A DNA stretch of 64,000 nucleotides from Pirellulales bacterium (GTDB taxonomy: Bacteria > Planctomycetota > Planctomycetia > Pirellulales > JACPPG01). How positions within the stretch are numbered: position 1 is the first letter of the stretch; every line of letters begins with the position of its first letter. The position numbers and the translations under genes are program-made. The stretch covers positions 1 through 64,000 of the forward strand of contig DASZWQ010000031.1 of NCBI GenBank assembly GCA_035546535.1. Reading direction: 5' to 3'. The notes beneath the pieces are model-generated. The model saw only the letters and a program-made list of their open reading frames with translations, made no database searches and had not been told where the DNA came from. Shown piece after piece: positions 26,899-42,168 of this stretch.

Positions 26899-27093
26899 CA
26901 CCTCTCCCTCGCAGGGAGAGGGCAGGGTGAGGGTCATGGTGTCGCGCTTCCACCAGCGCGAGTGTGCCATGCTTTTTCGCTGCAGGCGAATCAGTATGCG
27001 CAAGATTCAAGTCTCTCAGTTGTCGCGCGAGTGAACGTCTTTCATCTCATAACGCTTTACCCTCCCCTGACCCCCTCCCTGACAGGGAGGGGA
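26899..27093. mobile_element. MITE-like element with 34-bp imperfect terminal inverted repeats
   Basis: The left end (26901-26934) begins with the hairpin CCTCTCCCT-CGC-AGGGAGAGG and continues into a G-rich CAGGGTGAGGGT. The right end (27060-27092), read on the minus strand, begins with CCCCTCCCT-GTC-AGGGAGGGG and continues into TCAGGGGAGGGT. The two ends align over about 34 bp, so the 195-bp unit has long inverted ends that are each self-complementary. It encodes nothing. No target-site duplication was established. Confidence 0.6.
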
Positions 27094-27161
27094 ATAATTG
27101 GGACCGAGCGCCGTGCCTGCCCGATTGCCAGCCGCGCGATTTTTCGCCACACTCGGCCGTC

Positions 27162-30100
27162 ATGCAGCAATCAGCATGGCAATTCTGGATCGACGTCGGC
27201 GGCACCTTCACCGACTGCTTTGCACGGCGGCCGGATGGCTCGCTCGTGCGGCACAAGCTTCTCAGCTCAGGCGTCACCAAGGGAAGCGCGCAGACCGGAT
27301 CGACCCCGAGCAAGATCCTCGACCCGCTGCGCGCGGGCGATCCGGCGCGGTTTTGGAATGGTTATCGATTGCGATTGCTCGGGCCCGGTGGCGACGTCGT
27401 CGCCGAGTCTCGTGTGAAATCGAGCGCTGCCGACGGCACGCTGTACTTGGACGATGCGCTCGCGCTTCCACCTGCGCCAGGTCAGGCATACGAACTCGCG
27501 AGTGGTGAAGAGGCGCCGATCGTGGCAATCCGATACCTGCTAGGGCTCTCGCTGGCGGATGAAATTCCACACGTCGTCGTGCGGCTGGGAACCACGCGCG
27601 GAACGAACGCTCTCATCACGCGGCGCGGTGCGAGAACCGCCTTCGTCACCACGCGTGGGCTGCGCGACATTCTGGAAATCGGCTATCAGAACCGCCCCAA
27701 GCTCTTCGAGCTGGCGATTGAGAAGCGGGTGCCATTGTTCACCGAGGTCGTCGAGATCGATGAGCGCGTCACCGCCGAAGGGGAAGTCCTGCGCGCGCCC
27801 GACGCCGACACGGTGCGCCGGCAATTGCAGACGCTGCGCAGCAAAAATATCGAGTCGCTAGCCATTTGCCTGCTGCACGCCTACCGCTTCGGCGATCATG
27901 AAGAGCTGGTGGCCCGGCTCGCGCAAGAAATGGGCTTTCAGGAAATCAGTGTTAGCAGTCGTGTGGCGCCGCTCGTAAAGATCGTCGCCCGCGGCGACAC
28001 GACCGTGATGGACGCGTATCTGAACCCGATCCTGCGCGACTATATTACCAGGTTGCGCCGTTCGCTGCCGGCGGTTGATCTGCGGATCATGACCTCGGCC
28101 GGCGGTCTGGTGGCGGCCGAGCATTTCGTCGGCAAGGATAGTATTCTCTCCGGGCCCGCCGGCGGCGTCGTCGGCTTCTCGCGCGTGGCGCAGGCCGCCG
28201 GATTCACGCAGGCCATCGGCTTCGACATGGGGGGCACCAGCACCGACGTATCGCGGTTCGACGGTCGTTTCGAACTGGAATACGAAACCGAAAAGGCGGG
28301 CGTGCGCGTCGTCGCCCCCATGATGGCCATCGAAACGGTCGCTGCCGGCGGCGGTTCGATCTGCGCCTTTGACGGAACGAAGCTCGTCGTCGGACCGCAA
28401 AGCGCGGGCGCCGCGCCCGGCCCGGCCTGCTATGGCCAGGGAGGACCGCTGGCCGTTACCGATGTGAACTTCTACCTGGGCAAGATTCCGCCCGAGCATT
28501 TTCCTTTTCCACTCGATCGAGCGGCGGTCGAGCGCCGACTGGCAAAGCTGGTCGGCGAGATCGAGCGGGCCACGGCGCGCCGCTATTCGCCGGTCGAGCT
28601 GTGCGACGGCTTTTTGCAGGTCGCCAACGCGAACATGGTGAAGGCAATTCAATCGATCTCGGTCGCCAAAGGATGCGACCCGCGCGATTATGTCCTGGTC
28701 GGGTTCGGTGGTGCGGCCGGGCAGCATGCGTGCGCCGTGGCCGCCGAACTGGATATGTCGCAGGTGCTACTACATCCGGATGCCGGCATCTTGAGCGCCT
28801 ACGGCATCGGCGCCGCCGACGTTGTACGACATGCGGCGCGAGGAGTCTATCAAGCGTATTCGGCCGAACTTGTTGATAGCCTGGCCGCCGTTTTTACGGA
28901 GCTAAGTGGCCAGGCCCGTCGCCAGGTATTGGCCGAGGGGATCGCGCCTGACCGCATCGAGATACGCCGCGCGCTCGATCTGCGCTATCGCGGACTGGAC
29001 GCCTGGCTCACCGTGCCTGAACCGGCTGATGGCAACTACGCCGAGGCCTATGCCGCCGCGCACGAAAAGCTGTACGGTTATCGCAACGAGCGGCGCGAGA
29101 TCGAAGTCGTTGCCGTGCGCGTCGAGGTCGTGGGGCATACCGTCGAACCGGAGCCCGTGTCGGCGCACGCGGCTGCGCGTTCCGCAACACCCGAACGTAT
29201 GATTCAAGTCCACTTTGCGGCGCGCTCGGAATCCACGGCGCTCTACGATCGCGCGAAATTGCAGCCCGGCGATGTGATCGTGGGGCCGGCCGTGATTCAC
29301 GAAGCGACCGCGACCACGGTGATCGATCCGGGCTGGCGCGGCGAAGTGCTGTCGCGCGGCGAGCTTTTGCTGTCGCACCAGCCTGCCGCAAATGCCGACG
29401 TTGACCTGCAACCAGCAGGCGCTAACTCAGAAGTTCCGTGTGACCCGGCAACGCTCGAGGTCTTCAACAACCGCTTCGCGGCCATCGCCGAGCAGATGGG
29501 CATCACGCTGCGCAATACCTCGAGCAGCGTGAACGTCAAGGAACGGCTTGACTTTAGTTGCGCGATATTCACCTCCGTCGGAGACCTGGTCGTCAACGCC
29601 CCACATATACCCGTCCATCTGGGCGCGATGGGGGAGACGGTGCGCTGCATTTTGGCCGACAATCCTGATCTGCGTCCCGGCGATGTATATGTCACCAACG
29701 ATCCTTACCGCGGTGGGTCGCATCTGCCCGACGTGACTGTGGTGACGCCGATCTTCGATGCCGCGGGGCGCCGGCTTTTGTTCTTCACGGCCAGCCGCGC
29801 GCATCACGCCGAGATCGGCGGCATTGTTCCCGGCTCGATGCCCCCGTTTTCGTGCAACCTGGCGGAAGAGGGCGTGCTGATCAGCAACTTTCAGCTCATT
29901 GCGGCGGGCCGGTCGCGCTTCGACGAATTTGCCCGGTTGCTCAGCACCGCAAAATATCCGACGCGCAAGTTGACCGACAATCTGGCCGACGTCGCGGCAC
30001 AAGTCGCGGCCAATCAACAAGGCGCGCGCGACCTCCGGCGATTGGTCGAGCGCCATTCGCTCGCGGTCGTACAGGCGTACATGGGCCATATCCAAAACGC

Positions 30101-30989
30101 GGCCGAACAGAAGATGCGGCAGGCGCTACGAAAGCTCCCAGACGGTCGGCACCGATTCGAGGACCATCTGGATGATGGTTCGCCGATTGCCGTGGCAATC
30201 GACATCGACGGCGACCGGGCGACGATCGATTTCACCGGCACCGGGCCGGTGCTGGCTGGGAACCTGAACGCCAATCGGGCGATCGTCACGGCGGCCGTGA
30301 TGTACGTGCTGCGGACCTTGATCGCCGAGGACATTCCACTCAATCAGGGCGTGCTCGCGCCCGTACGGATCGTGCTTCCCGAATGTCTGCTGAACCCACG
30401 AGCGGGCGCCACGCCCGAGCAGAGTCCGGCCGTTGTCGGGGGCAATGTGGAAACTTCGCAGCGCGTGGTCGATGTTCTACTAGGCGCCCTCGGTCTGGCC
30501 GCCGCCAGCCAGGGGACGATGAACAACACGCTGTTTGGTGATTCGACGTTTGGCTATTACGAGACGATTTGCGGCGGCGCCGGGGCTACGGCCGATCGCG
30601 ATGGCGCCGACGCCGTGCATACGCACATGACGAACACCCGACTCACGGATCCGGAAGTTCTGGAACAACGCTACCCGGTGCGGTTGCGCGAGTTCTCGAT
30701 CCGCCGCGGCTCGGGAGGCACGGGCAAACGTCGCGGTGGCGATGGCGTGGTGCGACAGATCGAATTCTTACGTCCGCTCGATGTATCGCTCTTGGCCGAA
30801 CGACGTGGACACTACGCACCGTATGGTATGGCCGGCGGAGCCGTGGGCGCGATCGGCCACAATACGCTCGTTCACGCCGACGGCACGCGCGAAGATGTGG
30901 GCGGGCACGCCCAGTTCAGGGCCGCGGCAGGCGACGTGCTAGAGATCGAAACGCCCGGCGGCGGCGGTTGGGGCGCCGACCTGAAATAG
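27162..30989 (+). CDS. Fused hydantoinase/5-oxoprolinase (HyuA-HyuB)
   Basis: This single 1275-residue protein joins both halves of the ATP-dependent oxoprolinase/hydantoinase family. The HyuA half (about 1-740) has [28 protein letters not shown] and A-G-G-G-S-I. The HyuB half (about 765-1275) has F-N-N-R-F-x-x-I-A-E-Q-M-G, N-D-P-Y-x-G-G-x-H-L-P-D and the C-terminal G-G-G-G-W. Eukaryote-type 5-oxoprolinase has this fused order; many bacteria keep two genes. The reaction is opening of 5-oxoproline or a related hydantoin with ATP hydrolysis, in the cytoplasm. ATG 27162 gives the canonical N-terminus. Substrate specificity (oxoproline, hydantoin or acetone-like) cannot be read from sequence. Confidence 0.93.
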
Positions 30990-30997
30990 TGCTGCCG

Positions 30998-32050
30998 CTA
31001 CATCTGCGGAAAATAGTCGTTTACCACTGCGGCGAAATCCTCGGGCGTCACCACATGTGAAACGCGCGTGCGAAATTCGCGCGCTCCCGGCCGCCCCTGC
31101 GCATAGCAACAGGCAAATCTTCGCATCAAGATGGTCCCTCGGTCTGGGCCGAAGCGGTCGCAGACCAGCCGGTAGTGGTGCAACAACAGCGTTCGTTCTT
31201 CTTGGGGCGTTGGGTCTGGCGGGATCGGCTCGCCACGCAGCGCCGCTTCCGCCTGGCGGAAAAGCCACGGCTTGGCCAAGGCCGCACGGGCGATCATCAC
31301 GCCGTCGACATCGTAGCGCTCGAAAGCGCGCACGACCTTTGCCGGTGAATCGAGATCGCCGTTGCCGATCAGCGGGATGCGTTGCAAGTGCGGTTTGATA
31401 GCCGAGATTCGTTCCCAATCGGCCGAGCCCTTGAAGAAGTCCTGCGCCGTGCGGCCATGCACGGTCAGCGCCGCGGCGCCGGCCCCTTCGACGACTTGCG
31501 CCACATCGATGGCGTTGATGTTGTCGCGCGTGCAGCCCAAGCGGATCTTGGCCGTGACAGGGGTCGGCGCGCACGCTTGTGATACGCGCTCGACGATCGC
31601 GCCCACGCGCTCGGGGCACTTCAGCAAATAGCTGCCGCTATGCGCGGCGACCGTGATCTGTTTTACCGGGCAGCCGAAATTGATATCAACGACGCTCACT
31701 TTGAACTCGTGCGCGAGCCTCGCGCCGACCGCGGCCAAAGTGCCCGGGTCGTTATCCCAGATCTGTACGGCTAGCGGTCGGACTTCGTCGCGCACGCCCC
31801 ATAGGCGATCCGGAAATTCGCCGTCGCGTTCGTCCTTGGCCAGAAAGCCACGGGCACTGACCATCTCCGTGGCTTGCAATCCGGCGCCGCCGAATTCGCG
31901 CACGATCTGCCGGTAGGCATAGTTCGTGAACCCAGCCATCGGCGCCTGCAGCACCGGCGGATCGACGACGACATGGCCGATCATCAGCGGCCGCGCGCGC
32001 GTAGCCCGTTTGCTCGTGAGGCTCGGCGAATTATCGGTGATCGTGGCCAT
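30998..32050 (-). CDS. dusB: tRNA-dihydrouridine synthase, DusB type
   Basis: This FMN-dependent enzyme reduces uridine to dihydrouridine in tRNA. The 350 residues include the TIM-barrel start (L-Q-A-P-M-A-G-F-T), the catalytic N-F-G-C-P (C127), K-I-R-L-G in the middle and H-G-R-T-A-Q with G-N-G-D in the phosphate-binding half. R-R-F-A-C-C-Y near the end is unusual in having two cysteines. The stop codon is 8 nt from the convergent oxoprolinase stop. Membership of DusB rather than DusA/C is inferred from overall motif pattern. Confidence 0.9.
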   Translation of the reverse strand: MATITDNSPSLTSKRATRARPLMIGHVVVDPPVLQAPMAGFTNYAYRQIVREFGGAGLQATEMVSARGFLAKDERDGEFPDRLWGVRDEVRPLAVQIWDNDPGTLAAVGARLAHEFKVSVVDINFGCPVKQITVAAHSGSYLLKCPERVGAIVERVSQACAPTPVTAKIRLGCTRDNINAIDVAQVVEGAGAAALTVHGRTAQDFFKGSADWERISAIKPHLQRIPLIGNGDLDSPAKVVRAFERYDVDGVMIARAALAKPWLFRQAEAALRGEPIPPDPTPQEERTLLLHHYRLVCDRFGPDRGTILMRRFACCYAQGRPGAREFRTRVSHVVTPEDFAAVVNDYFPQM

Positions 32051-32143: not shown

Positions 32144-34480
32144 CTAATTCGTCGGCGGCGCAGGCTTCGATGTGACCAGCGCCTGTACCAGCGACTCGCT
32201 GGTCGTGGCCGGTGGCAGCACGGCGTTGGCGTACGCCGCGATTTCCACATTGTAGTCGGTCAGCCGGGCAAGAAATGCGCCCGTCTCCGCCGTCTGCTGG
32301 GCAATCGCTTCCAGGGCCCTGTACGTGCCGGCCAGCGATCCGGCGGCGTCGACCGTCATATTGCCCCGCTCGTGGTCGGCGGCGATAACGGCCGCGGCCC
32401 GATCGATTAGCGCCGCACGCAGTTGTGGAATCGTGGCCGACAGGCGCTTGACGATGGCTGAATCGGCCAGCTCGCGCGACAGCTCGGTTAGTTGCAGGCG
32501 GTACCCGCCCGCATGCGGCGACGTTTCGGCAGCCAACCAAGGGCCGTCGGTCAACGTGCGGCCGGCGGCCATCGTCAGGTTCCACTGCGCGATCACGCGA
32601 TCGATCTGTGCGTTGCGCGCGTCGGCTTGTGCCGCGAGCTGCGCCGCCCGCACCAGCAACATGGCGGTCGGGCCGTTGCTCTCAGGCCCCAAGTGTTCGG
32701 CGGTGATCGCGGCACCCAGCGCCTCGAACTGTTCGAGCTGCTGTGAGAATAATTGGGCAAGCGCGGCGTTGCGCTGCGCCTGCCAGTAGGCCGTGATCGC
32801 ATCGCGGCGCCGCTCGGACGGCATGCTGGCCAGATACTCGGCAAGCGCAATCGGCGTATTCTCGGCACTCGTCGGCTCCCAGCAAAGTACCTGCACCAGT
32901 TGTCGCGCCTGATCTGCCGGCGAACGATCGACAAGGGCAGGATAGAGGCACGGTGAAGCCAAGAGCGGTGCGGCCGCCTGTGACGCGTCCTCGGCGACGG
33001 GTGAGATGGGCCGCGCGGTTTCCTGGGCTTCGGTCAGCGTGTTGGTCGAAAGCCGCTCAGCAGAGGTTCGATCGTCAGGCAACCGGTCCGCGGGAGCTGT
33101 TTGAATCTCGGCAGCCGCTGCTGGACGCCGCGCCGCGTAAGTGTTCGCCGAAGGTCTCCGACCCCCAGTTGATGTCGAGCCGACGGGCGTCTTTTGGCCG
33201 TCGTCGTCGCGCGGCAACGTCGGCCGCTCGCGATTTCGCGGTGGCGCCAAGGTCGGCTCGTTACGCGCCGGCGCTGGCCGGGGCGGATTGCCAGCAGCAG
33301 GCGCAGCACCCGGCGGCGGCGCCAATTTCAATTGTCCCTCCGGTACGGGTTGCAGTCCGACAGGTGGCGCGCCGCCAAGGGGCTGGTTGAAACCTGCTCG
33401 TTCAATGCCCGTCGTTCCGGCGCCCGGACCAGCCCCGCCCATTGTCCCGGCAGCCATGGCGCCCGCGGGCACGCTGCCGGTCGGGAGCTTGATCAGCATC
33501 GATGCCAATCCTTGCGGGTCCAAAGGAGGCGTCGGTGCCGACATGGCGTATTCGGCAATATCGAGGTTGTAGAGCCGGACGTCGGCGAGAAAGGCGCGCC
33601 GCTGGCGCGACAGATCGTCAACCAGCGACAGAACGAGAGCCAGGTCGGCGCGACCTTCGAAATGTGCCTCTTCCGCAGCCACCAGCGCGTCGGCGGCCGC
33701 ATTGACGGCCGCGGCGCGCGACTCGATGGCGCTGCGCCGAATCGGCAGTGTGCGATCGACAAGCACCGCCCGTGCGGGTATCGCGCGCCCTTGATAGAGA
33801 TTATCGAGCTCGGTGCGGTACGGCCCCACGTGCGGCATGTCCGCTGTCAGGGGCAAGGTCTGGCCGGCCGGCAAGCGAATAATGCCGGCGAGGTCATATT
33901 GAGCGGCAACCAGCACCACGTCGGCATCTTGCAACCGCGCCTTTGCCGCTTGCAGGCGCGTTGCCAAAATTCGCTGCTCGGCCGTCGGCTCGTGGTCGGG
34001 ATGCTGCGCCGGCTTGAGCCGCTCGAACTGTTGATATTCGTCCCAGGCGAAGTTGTAATCGCCCAGCGCTTCGGCCAGCCGCCAGTAACTTTCCGTCGCG
34101 CGCAACTGCCCGGCCCGATCAGGTACCGAGCGCAACACTTCAACCAGTGGCATGGGTCGGCCGCGCGGTTTTTCTCCTTCGGGCACGGCCAGCGCCATCG
34201 AGAGGATTTCCAACGGCGCGGTGCGAGCCGATCTTGGTTCCACTGGCACAAGCTGGCCAGGCGCCTTCGGTGGCGATGGCGGGGCGGTCTCTGGACTGAC
34301 GGCCGGCGCTCCGGCATTAGGCGGCAGTGCTGCCGGCGGTTCTGCCGCGGGCGCAAACGGCGGCGCCTCGCTCGCCTGATCGGCCGGCGAACCTGTCGCG
34401 TGCTGCGGCCGTGCCGGAGGTTGCGTCGCCGGGGGCAATTGCGCCGCCAGGCAGCAAACGAGTAGTTGAGTCAAATACAT
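32144..34480 (-). CDS. Large secreted protein with internal tandem duplication
   Basis: This 778-residue protein of unrecognised family starts with a hydrophobic leader and a long Pro/Ala-rich region (about 15-105). Two homologous helical halves follow (about 110-330 and 545-770), separated by a Pro/Arg/Gly-rich linker. Shared positions include Y-W (132-133; 565-566), Q-Q-x-E/F, P-H-[VA]-G-x-Y-R (216-222; 655-661), R-A-A-A-V (255-259; 694-698) and Y-N-x-[DE]-I-A-x-Y-A (304-312; 743-751). Only a few gaps are needed. The two-fold helical layout and the Y-N-x-x-I-A-x-Y motif recall TolC-type efflux channels, but no beta-barrel strands are evident. GGAAGGAT precedes the ATG on the minus strand. 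Function unknown. Confidence 0.65.
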   Translation of the reverse strand: MYLTQLLVCCLAAQLPPATQPPARPQHATGSPADQASEAPPFAPAAEPPAALPPNAGAPAVSPETAPPSPPKAPGQLVPVEPRSARTAPLEILSMALAVPEGEKPRGRPMPLVEVLRSVPDRAGQLRATESYWRLAEALGDYNFAWDEYQQFERLKPAQHPDHEPTAEQRILATRLQAAKARLQDADVVLVAAQYDLAGIIRLPAGQTLPLTADMPHVGPYRTELDNLYQGRAIPARAVLVDRTLPIRRSAIESRAAAVNAAADALVAAEEAHFEGRADLALVLSLVDDLSRQRRAFLADVRLYNLDIAEYAMSAPTPPLDPQGLASMLIKLPTGSVPAGAMAAGTMGGAGPGAGTTGIERAGFNQPLGGAPPVGLQPVPEGQLKLAPPPGAAPAAGNPPRPAPARNEPTLAPPRNRERPTLPRDDDGQKTPVGSTSTGGRRPSANTYAARRPAAAAEIQTAPADRLPDDRTSAERLSTNTLTEAQETARPISPVAEDASQAAAPLLASPCLYPALVDRSPADQARQLVQVLCWEPTSAENTPIALAEYLASMPSERRRDAITAYWQAQRNAALAQLFSQQLEQFEALGAAITAEHLGPESNGPTAMLLVRAAQLAAQADARNAQIDRVIAQWNLTMAAGRTLTDGPWLAAETSPHAGGYRLQLTELSRELADSAIVKRLSATIPQLRAALIDRAAAVIAADHERGNMTVDAAGSLAGTYRALEAIAQQTAETGAFLARLTDYNVEIAAYANAVLPPATTSESLVQALVTSKPAPPTN

Positions 34481-39904: not shown

Positions 39905-40065
39905 AGGCCGATTCCGTTGCCCAGCCGCAATTCCATCGGCAGCTAGTGCCCATTTGACCCGCCCGCGTGCGCGATTCAGAATACGGGTTCTTCGAACTTG
40001 CTATTCCCGCGCGTGATGCGGCAGGCCGTGCGCGCGACTCATTGAAATCTTTCGCGGAGGGTGCC

Positions 40066-42168
40066 ATGCGGTTGCGACTCACAACGGTTCTTTCATGCAC
40101 GATGACGGCCGCGATGTGCATCGCGCTCGCCGATGCAGCGCGGGCGGAGACGGTCACCGTTTATCGCGACGATTGGGGCGTGCCGCACATCTATGCCGAG
40201 TCGCTGCCGGGTGCCGCCTATGGCGCTGGGTATGCCCAGGCCGAGGATCGGCTCGAACAAATGTTGCAGAATTATCGATTGGCCGCGGGTAACCTGGCCG
40301 AGGTGGCCGGGCCGTCGCTCGTGGATCAGGATTATCGGTCGCGCGTCTGGCAGCACGAAGAGGTCGCCCGCGACCACTACGAGCGGATGGACCCCAGGCT
40401 GAAGGCCACGTGCACGGCGTTCATCCGCGGCGTGCAAAAGTACATGGACGAGCATCCGGCTGATGTGCCCAAGTGGGCGCAAAAGCTCGAGCCGCATTTC
40501 CCCGTGATGCTCAGCCGGTTCATCATTTGGAACTGGCCCGAGGGACAAGCCGCCGGCGACCTGGAACGCGCCGGGATCAAACCATCGCCGCAACCATACC
40601 TGGGCTCGAACGAGTGGGTGATCGCCGCCAATCGCAGCGCGACGGGAAACGTAATCGCGCTGATTGATCCGCACCTGAGCTGGTACGGACCGTTCCGCTT
40701 CTACGAGCAGCGGATGTACGCCCGCGGCGAGGACTTTGCCCTCTCGGGCGCGGCGATCCTGGGCTTGCCCATGCCGGGCTTGGGACACACGCAATACGCG
40801 TCGGTCGCCATGACCACAGGCGGGCCCGACACGGCCGACGTCTATGAAGAGACCGTCGATCCGGCGAACCCGCTGCGTTACGAGGTCGACGGCAAGTGGC
40901 GCGAGATGAAGACGCGCAAGATCACGATCCGCGTCCGCGACGGAGAGAAGATCATCGAGAAGCACTTCCAACTCGATTCGACACATCACGGCCCCGTCGT
41001 CGCCCGCAAGGACAACAAGGCCTACACGATGGCGCTGGCGTACATCGATTGCGCCGGACTGATGGAAGAGCTGTATAAGGTTCACACGGCTCGCAACATG
41101 GACCAGATCAAGGCCGCGCTGTCGACCTGCGAGCTGATGCCGCAAAACATCATGATCGGCACCGTCGACGGCGACACCTTCTACGTACACGACGGTCGCG
41201 TGCCGGTGCGCAATCACGGCCTGCCGACCAATCGGCCGGTGCCAGGCAACGTGTCGAAAAACGATTTCGCCGGCATTCACCCGTTCGAGGATCTGCCCCA
41301 AGTCACGAATCCCAAGGCCGGCTACATGCAGAATTGCAATGTCGCGCCGGCCGTCATGATGCGCGGCAGCCCCATGACCAAGGAAAGCGCCAAGCGGCCG
41401 TACTTGTATTACGACGACGGGCGAGGGAACCACCAGCGTGCTGAAATGGTGACCGAGATTCTGCACACCGATAATTCGGTCACGCTCGAAGAAGCCATTG
41501 ACCTGGCGTTCTGCACGCAGGTGCTGGGCGCCGAGAAGTGGCAAGATCGCATCGCCCAGGCGTGGCAAACGGCCAGCGCCGACGCCAAGACGCCCGACGT
41601 GCAGGCCGTGGTCGCGAACATCCGCGACTGGAATCGCCGTTCCGACCCGGGCAGCAAGGGGGCGATTGCGTATTACGCCTTCAAGCAGGCGCTGGGCGGA
41701 AAGACCTCCGAGGCCGTCGCGGTGCCGGCCGAACTTTCGGACGCCGACATCGTTGCGGCCCTCGCCAAGGGAGCCGAATGGCTGCGCAGCAAGGTCGGCG
41801 GCGTCGACGCGCGGTACGGCGACGTCTTCCGCGTTGCGCGCAAGGACGGCAAGCAGAGTTGGCCGGTCGGCGGCGGCAGCCTGAAAGAAGCGGGCATGGC
41901 CACGCCGCGGGCGATTTCGTTCGGCAACGTGGGCGAACAAAAGATTGGCCACGGCGGCCAGACGTCGACGCAAATCGTCGTGCTCTCCAAGCCGCCACGC
42001 TCGTACATGGTGCTACCGCTGGGCGAAAGCGATCATCCCGAAACCGGTCACTGGGACGATCAGGCGGCCAAGCTCTTCAGCGAGGGGAAGGCGAAGGACA
42101 CGTACTTCATGGACCTCGACGCCCTCAAGCCGCACGTGACGAGCACGGCCACCTTGGCTTTCGAATAA
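40066..42168 (+). CDS. Penicillin-acylase family (S45) N-terminal-nucleophile hydrolase
   Basis: This 700-residue exported amidase has a signal peptide (about 1-27, ending A-R-A), an alpha-chain region (D-x-x-G-V-P-H-I-Y-A, then G-Y-A-Q-A-E-D-R), and a G-S-N-E-W block whose Ser (about 181) should be the autocatalytic N-terminal nucleophile of the beta chain. GGAGGG lies 4-5 nt before the ATG. Known members cleave acyl amides, including beta-lactams, cephalosporin side chains and acyl-homoserine lactones. Which of these applies cannot be told. It is followed after 66 nt by a TlpA-like protein. Confidence 0.92.
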   Translation: MRLRLTTVLSCTMTAAMCIALADAARAETVTVYRDDWGVPHIYAESLPGAAYGAGYAQAEDRLEQMLQNYRLAAGNLAEVAGPSLVDQDYRSRVWQHEEVARDHYERMDPRLKATCTAFIRGVQKYMDEHPADVPKWAQKLEPHFPVMLSRFIIWNWPEGQAAGDLERAGIKPSPQPYLGSNEWVIAANRSATGNVIALIDPHLSWYGPFRFYEQRMYARGEDFALSGAAILGLPMPGLGHTQYASVAMTTGGPDTADVYEETVDPANPLRYEVDGKWREMKTRKITIRVRDGEKIIEKHFQLDSTHHGPVVARKDNKAYTMALAYIDCAGLMEELYKVHTARNMDQIKAALSTCELMPQNIMIGTVDGDTFYVHDGRVPVRNHGLPTNRPVPGNVSKNDFAGIHPFEDLPQVTNPKAGYMQNCNVAPAVMMRGSPMTKESAKRPYLYYDDGRGNHQRAEMVTEILHTDNSVTLEEAIDLAFCTQVLGAEKWQDRIAQAWQTASADAKTPDVQAVVANIRDWNRRSDPGSKGAIAYYAFKQALGGKTSEAVAVPAELSDADIVAALAKGAEWLRSKVGGVDARYGDVFRVARKDGKQSWPVGGGSLKEAGMATPRAISFGNVGEQKIGHGGQTSTQIVVLSKPPRSYMVLPLGESDHPETGHWDDQAAKLFSEGKAKDTYFMDLDALKPHVTSTATLAFE

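Follow-up and report, generated by a model that had tools for sequence, protein, structure and literature searches.

Gene and domain organization

The gene considered here lies on the minus strand of a 64,000-nucleotide stretch of Pirellulales DNA (contig DASZWQ010000031.1), referred to below as the window. The coordinates 32144-34480, the strand and the length of 778 residues assigned to this open reading frame by an earlier sequence-only reading were confirmed, and with relatives across the order it is a real gene, present in its genome as one copy. The features of the gene and its product are as follows.

32144-34480, minus strand: gene for the 778-residue two-domain barrel-less TolC protein (open reading frame; homologues in 143 of 196 Pirellulales genomes)
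34436-34480, minus strand: hydrophobic N-terminal stretch, residues 1-15, a possible export signal lacking a basic n-region (sequence; model helix 2-13)
34229-34435, minus strand: disordered Pro/Ala-rich leader, residues 16-84 (composition, low pLDDT)
33485-34228, minus strand: N-terminal TolC-like domain, residues 85-332 (profile; Z 19.1 to TolC over 217 residues, model 110-333)
33881-34117, minus strand: first hairpin of the N domain, residues 122-200, the counterpart of the tip hairpin in TolC repeat 1, lower H3/H4 (profile matches, model)
33776-33880, minus strand: conserved equatorial loop of the N domain, residues 201-235, with LPLTADMPHVGPYRT, corresponding to the TolC inter-repeat linker (profile match, conservation)
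33539-33775, minus strand: second hairpin of the N domain, residues 236-314, the counterpart of the tip hairpin in TolC repeat 2, lower H7/H8, with YNLDIAEYA at its end (profile matches, model)
32945-33484, minus strand: disordered Pro/Ala/Gly-rich linker, residues 333-512 (composition, model)
32171-32920, minus strand: C-terminal TolC-like domain, residues 521-770 (profile; Z 15.1 over 214 residues to the TolC-family chain 5azp_A, model 543-759)
32567-32818, minus strand: first hairpin of the C domain, residues 555-638 (model)
32219-32458, minus strand: second hairpin of the C domain, residues 675-754, with a diverged tip sequence (model, conservation)
30998-32050, minus strand: neighbouring dus gene, tRNA-dihydrouridine synthase (Pfam PF01207, E 4e-69), 93 bp downstream on the same strand

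The composition of the protein agrees with the Pro-rich leader and long Pro-rich linker described earlier, proline making up 30% of the leader and 16% of the linker, which also contains 19% alanine. Both segments have pLDDT values mostly below 50 in the AlphaFold2 model and are predicted to be disordered.

Distribution and genomic context

Relatives were detected with a domain profile in the 143 sampled Pirellulales genomes given above, representing 77 of 102 genera, and a single-sequence search gave matches in 45 of 57 listed genomes, the window's own included. No close relatives were found in genome contigs with a single-protein query, and an alignment of five close N domains used as the query of the same contigs returned 38 loci. 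The alignment of 29 rows contained no segment of sufficient conservation to serve as a query. The named relatives in this set belong to the Planctomycetota and several are labelled Pirellulales; the record titles Kuenenia and Planctomicrobium among them are labels assigned by submitters. Outside the order, no clear family member was found in a phylum-wide draw of 294 genomes searched in six frames with nine candidates scored per genome.

Of the 51 family loci with room for such a neighbour, 31 carry a dus gene downstream on the same strand, no more than 400 nt away. This adjacency points to vertical inheritance of an old locus more than to a common function, and a role read from neighbouring genes was set aside, the frequent neighbour being dus. 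Of the adjacent window genes that were examined, none is an efflux, adaptor or pump gene, so nothing there links the protein to a pump. Other genes of the window include a 1341-residue open reading frame with hydantoinase A and B domains in a single chain (26964-30989, plus strand) and a penicillin amidase family protein (39967-42168, plus strand; Pfam E 1e-122). In the genome, 27 OEP/TolC-type stretches pass the cut-off (E < 0.001), two of them in one 616-residue frame on the window's own contig outside the window (C31:69417-70607).

Two homologous domains

The protein is built from two homologous halves of about 230 residues each, as had been proposed: their Smith-Waterman score of 167 compares with 40 +/- 6.7, and a maximum of 69, for 1000 shuffles. 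Pairwise identity is approximately 24-25%, and the description of the alignment as almost gapless needs slight amendment, as the halves do align but require a few small gaps. The shared motifs fall at matched positions, namely YW at 132-133 and 565-566, PHxGxY at 216-221 and 655-660, RAAAV at about 255-259 and 694-698, and YNxxIAxYA at 304-312 and 743-751. Profile comparison likewise finds the halves similar; those of the N-type (29 domains) and C-type (19 domains) sequences were matched by hhalign with a probability of 99.9% and an E-value of 1.9e-34 over 237 columns.

Members of the family carry either one or two such domains. In an unrooted tree of the 48 domains, all C-type sequences form one side of a single branch (support 100/99), and the one-domain members are placed among the N-type domains. 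The topology fits a single duplication followed by faster evolution of the C copy. The one-domain state may be ancestral or may reflect loss of the C copy. Some loci fit the single-duplication picture less cleanly: one member (L010, G024:C181) has an extra partial N-domain match ahead of its N domain, which looks split or partly repeated, and genomes G018, G024, G402, G414 and G473 each have three or four domain matches, possibly representing extra copies or split genes.

Sequence relationship to TolC

The family had not been recognised from the sequence alone, and neither Pfam nor NCBIfam returned a match when scanned with the full protein; no described family covers the halves at that family's own cut-off. 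The commonest weak match was Pfam OEP, seen in 12 of the 48 member domains with a best E-value of 0.0036, and none of these 48 domains passed the curated cut-off of OEP (PF02321). When the 48-domain profile was compared with PDB sequences, the top match was Escherichia coli TolC (E 0.005) at residues 321-396, the H7/H8 hairpin. Minor matches in the same comparison, including NDM beta-lactamase, ESAT-6-like and polyketide synthase sequences, were weak, had no support from structure searches and were discarded. In the six-frame search of the 294 phylum genomes, most of the weak matches outside the family were TolC/OEP proteins with clear OEP domains; the few that were not, a kinase/sulfatase-factor protein, a histidine kinase and a glycosyltransferase, were also rejected.

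The arrangement of the TolC matches is informative. Of 13 such TolC proteins examined, 10 gave two collinear matches of more than 2 bits each, in which domain positions 27-152 correspond to the first TolC hairpin, often extending into the inter-repeat linker, and positions 136-223 correspond to the second. Between the collinear matches TolC has roughly 100 more residues than the family domain. In L066 and L071 the profile match spans the inter-repeat linker, so that the equatorial connection is present. Reversed and shuffled TolC sequences scored at most 2.9 bits, and forward sequences exceeded 10 bits for 15 of 43 entries, a list in which some proteins are repeated and 13 entries had been chosen because they matched. 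The YW and YNxxIA-type motifs also occur in the same or nearly the same form, and at matched places, in seven ordinary planctomycete TolCs. Taken individually, the sequence matches to TolC are weak and lie in helical coiled coil.

Predicted structure

AlphaFold2, run without templates, gave a model of the window protein with a pTM of 0.73 in which each half is made of four long helices and has pLDDT values that mostly exceed 90. Each half begins with a strand and a short helix; two pairs of long helices follow, separated by the conserved loop, and another short helix closes the half. The longest strand is of 4 residues or fewer in the models of a two-domain and a one-domain member. With VIA-align, the N half superimposes on TolC with a Z of 19.1 over 217 residues (3.3 A), the alignment covering TolC residues 1-414 and thus starting ahead of the first hairpin, and the C half matches 5azp_A as listed above. 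All of the 29 best structural entries are TolC-type outer membrane factors, and the next fold follows at Z 6.6; non-TolC folds in the structure lists, all with Z below 7, were dismissed. A one-domain relative behaves similarly, with a Z of 19.2 over 213 residues and a similar gap to other folds. Whole-chain matches of the family domain to the TolC superfamily range from Z 13 to 19. The structure-alignment tool's own guidance cautions that arrangement alone may bring a helical model to Z 13 to 14, a level exceeded by Z 19 with near-full coverage and a wide margin to other folds. Foldseek returned modest best E-values, 0.075 for the full length and 0.0013 for a single domain.

These results bear on whether the family could be a periplasmic four-helix protein with no relation to TolC whose hairpins came to resemble those of TolC by convergence, as the weak sequence matches and modest Foldseek values might allow. 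We consider this very unlikely in view of the collinear double matches and their reversed and shuffled controls, the matching placement of the YW and YN motifs, and a Z of 19 compared with 6.6 for the best non-TolC fold. The TolC resemblance is best read as homology, not coincidence.

Parts of TolC retained and lost

Each TolC repeat consists of two transmembrane strands, a long helix (H3, H7) and two half-helices (H2/H4, H6/H8) that meet at the equatorial domain (PMC8277102). Relative to this plan, about 100 residues per repeat are missing from the family domain, namely the membrane-crossing strands together with the alpha-barrel's upper half, and what remains lies below the equator. The family keeps H4 and the lower half of H3, the equatorial connection, and H8 and the lower half of H7; H2, H6, the strands and the upper parts of both long helices are absent, with the exact cut points inferred from the alignments. 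Each half is a reduced version of a whole TolC protomer with both hairpins, and the window protein contains four tip hairpins. The sequence-only reading was therefore right to point to a TolC-like arrangement, given the homology seen by profile, collinear matches and structure, but the halves are not the two internal repeats of TolC.

The latter assignment, under which the protein would be an ordinary TolC outer-membrane channel whose halves are the usual two repeats, can draw on the two-fold repeat and the TolC homology. It is extremely improbable, as each half by itself spans both TolC hairpins, only about 35 residues separate the hairpins within a half, no transmembrane strand is predicted and one-domain members occur. 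On the evidence of the models, a family protein cannot form an outer-membrane pore in the manner of TolC because it has no transmembrane strands with which to cross that membrane.

Comparison with known systems places the family closest to the TolC/outer membrane factor superfamily (PF02321 OEP; TolC, OprM, CusC, CmeC, VceC), with which it shares two tip hairpins in like order and equatorial connections, and, in the case of planctomycete TolCs, the YW and YN motifs. It differs from that superfamily in lacking the transmembrane beta-strands and the upper alpha-barrel half, in falling below the OEP cut-off, in the frequent occurrence of the unit in tandem with a disordered linker, and in a conservation peak at the equator with a minimum at the tips. 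Periplasmic adaptors (membrane fusion proteins such as AcrA), in which a lipoyl/barrel-sandwich domain flanks a single hairpin, resemble the family in having coiled-coil hairpins and a periplasmic setting, probable for the family; only one hairpin of the model overlaps AcrA, over 90 residues at Z 5.5, and a Pfam scan of the full protein found no adaptor domain.

We regard the origin from TolC and the architecture described here as highly likely. The ancestor would have been a planctomycete TolC-type outer membrane factor, both repeats of which lost the segment with the membrane-spanning strands and the upper alpha-barrel half. The sub-equatorial unit left behind, two coiled-coil tip hairpins with their equatorial connections, would then have been duplicated within the gene, with a long disordered Pro-rich linker between the copies. 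The product is a TolC descendant that fails a defining feature of TolC channels.

Export and cellular location

The protein had been called secreted, which is supported for one-domain relatives, often equipped with ordinary signal peptides, but export of the window protein itself is only probable. Its N-terminus, MYLTQLLVCCLAAQ, has a short hydrophobic stretch with no basic residues and is not a textbook signal peptide. A short leader of the type MDxxSLLLxxLLGQ, also without basic residues, recurs among two-domain members (L007, L008, L017, L018 and others) and differs from the ordinary signal peptides of one-domain members. One of the latter (L023/L102, G023:C25) begins with MWAMLRYYLAGGLVSAAVLAGGVMEYYRR, which resembles a membrane anchor more than a cleaved signal. 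Because one-domain relatives carry ordinary signal peptides, the periplasm is the likely location, and because there is nothing to insert into the outer membrane, the product should remain soluble; a soluble periplasmic location for the window protein is, in our estimate, likely.

Conservation and possible function

Conservation within the domains is greatest at the equatorial end, with 2.46 and 2.05 bits at the end of helix d and 1.88 and 1.69 in the equatorial loop, and is lowest at tip 1 of N-type domains (0.80 bits) and tip 2 of C-type domains (0.95). In TolC the tips meet the adaptor proteins in a tip-to-tip model (PMC3391258), and weak conservation of the corresponding tips speaks, not decisively, against a conserved tip partner in the family. 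This bears on a possible role as a partner of working efflux or type I secretion systems, in which the tip hairpins would dock membrane fusion proteins or join mixed barrels with full TolC, and the protein would modulate, cap or sequester pump parts. Such a role would be compatible with the retention of the very tips that TolC uses toward adaptors (PMC3391258), with the many TolC-type proteins in the genome as possible mates and with a moderately conserved G..dl..vL at tip 2 of N-type domains, which resembles TolC tips. The least conserved segments are nevertheless tips, namely tip 1 in N-type domains, as against 1.9-2.5 bits in their top equatorial zones, and tip 2 in C-type domains, and no adaptor or pump gene was seen in the part of the gene's surroundings that was examined within the window; we consider the role rather unlikely.

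We tentatively favour a soluble periplasmic coiled-coil collar or scaffold over a pump modulator, although this too is no better than a possibility. The pTM of the model, reached despite about 220 low-confidence residues, suggests that it sets one half against the other. The two units may pack side by side through their helices in the fashion of TolC protomers, and the conserved equatorial face would then be a working or packing surface rather than an exit duct. As a whole, tandem barrel-less TolC units forming a soluble periplasmic collar or scaffold are the best explanation of the data, held with moderate confidence that represents a compromise among the separate confidences in its parts.

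Significance

TolC is the textbook case of an alpha-barrel and a membrane beta-barrel combined in one tube. No description of a barrel-less TolC was found in the open-access literature searched, a scope outside which most subscription journals fall; a match to the term "barrel-less" near TolC concerns MlaD and was set aside. The present analysis assigns an origin to a Pirellulales protein family that is unnamed in profile libraries. An order-wide family retaining the lower alpha-barrel alone would show that the two parts of TolC are evolutionarily separable, and would supply a naturally soluble unit for the study of TolC tip packing and adaptor docking. A more speculative and doubtful extension is that the sub-equatorial half of TolC serves in the planctomycete periplasm as an independent soluble block forming closed helical rings or tubes, with a stoichiometry that differs between one-domain and two-domain proteins. 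If that were true, an outer-membrane pore would have been turned into a periplasmic structural element.
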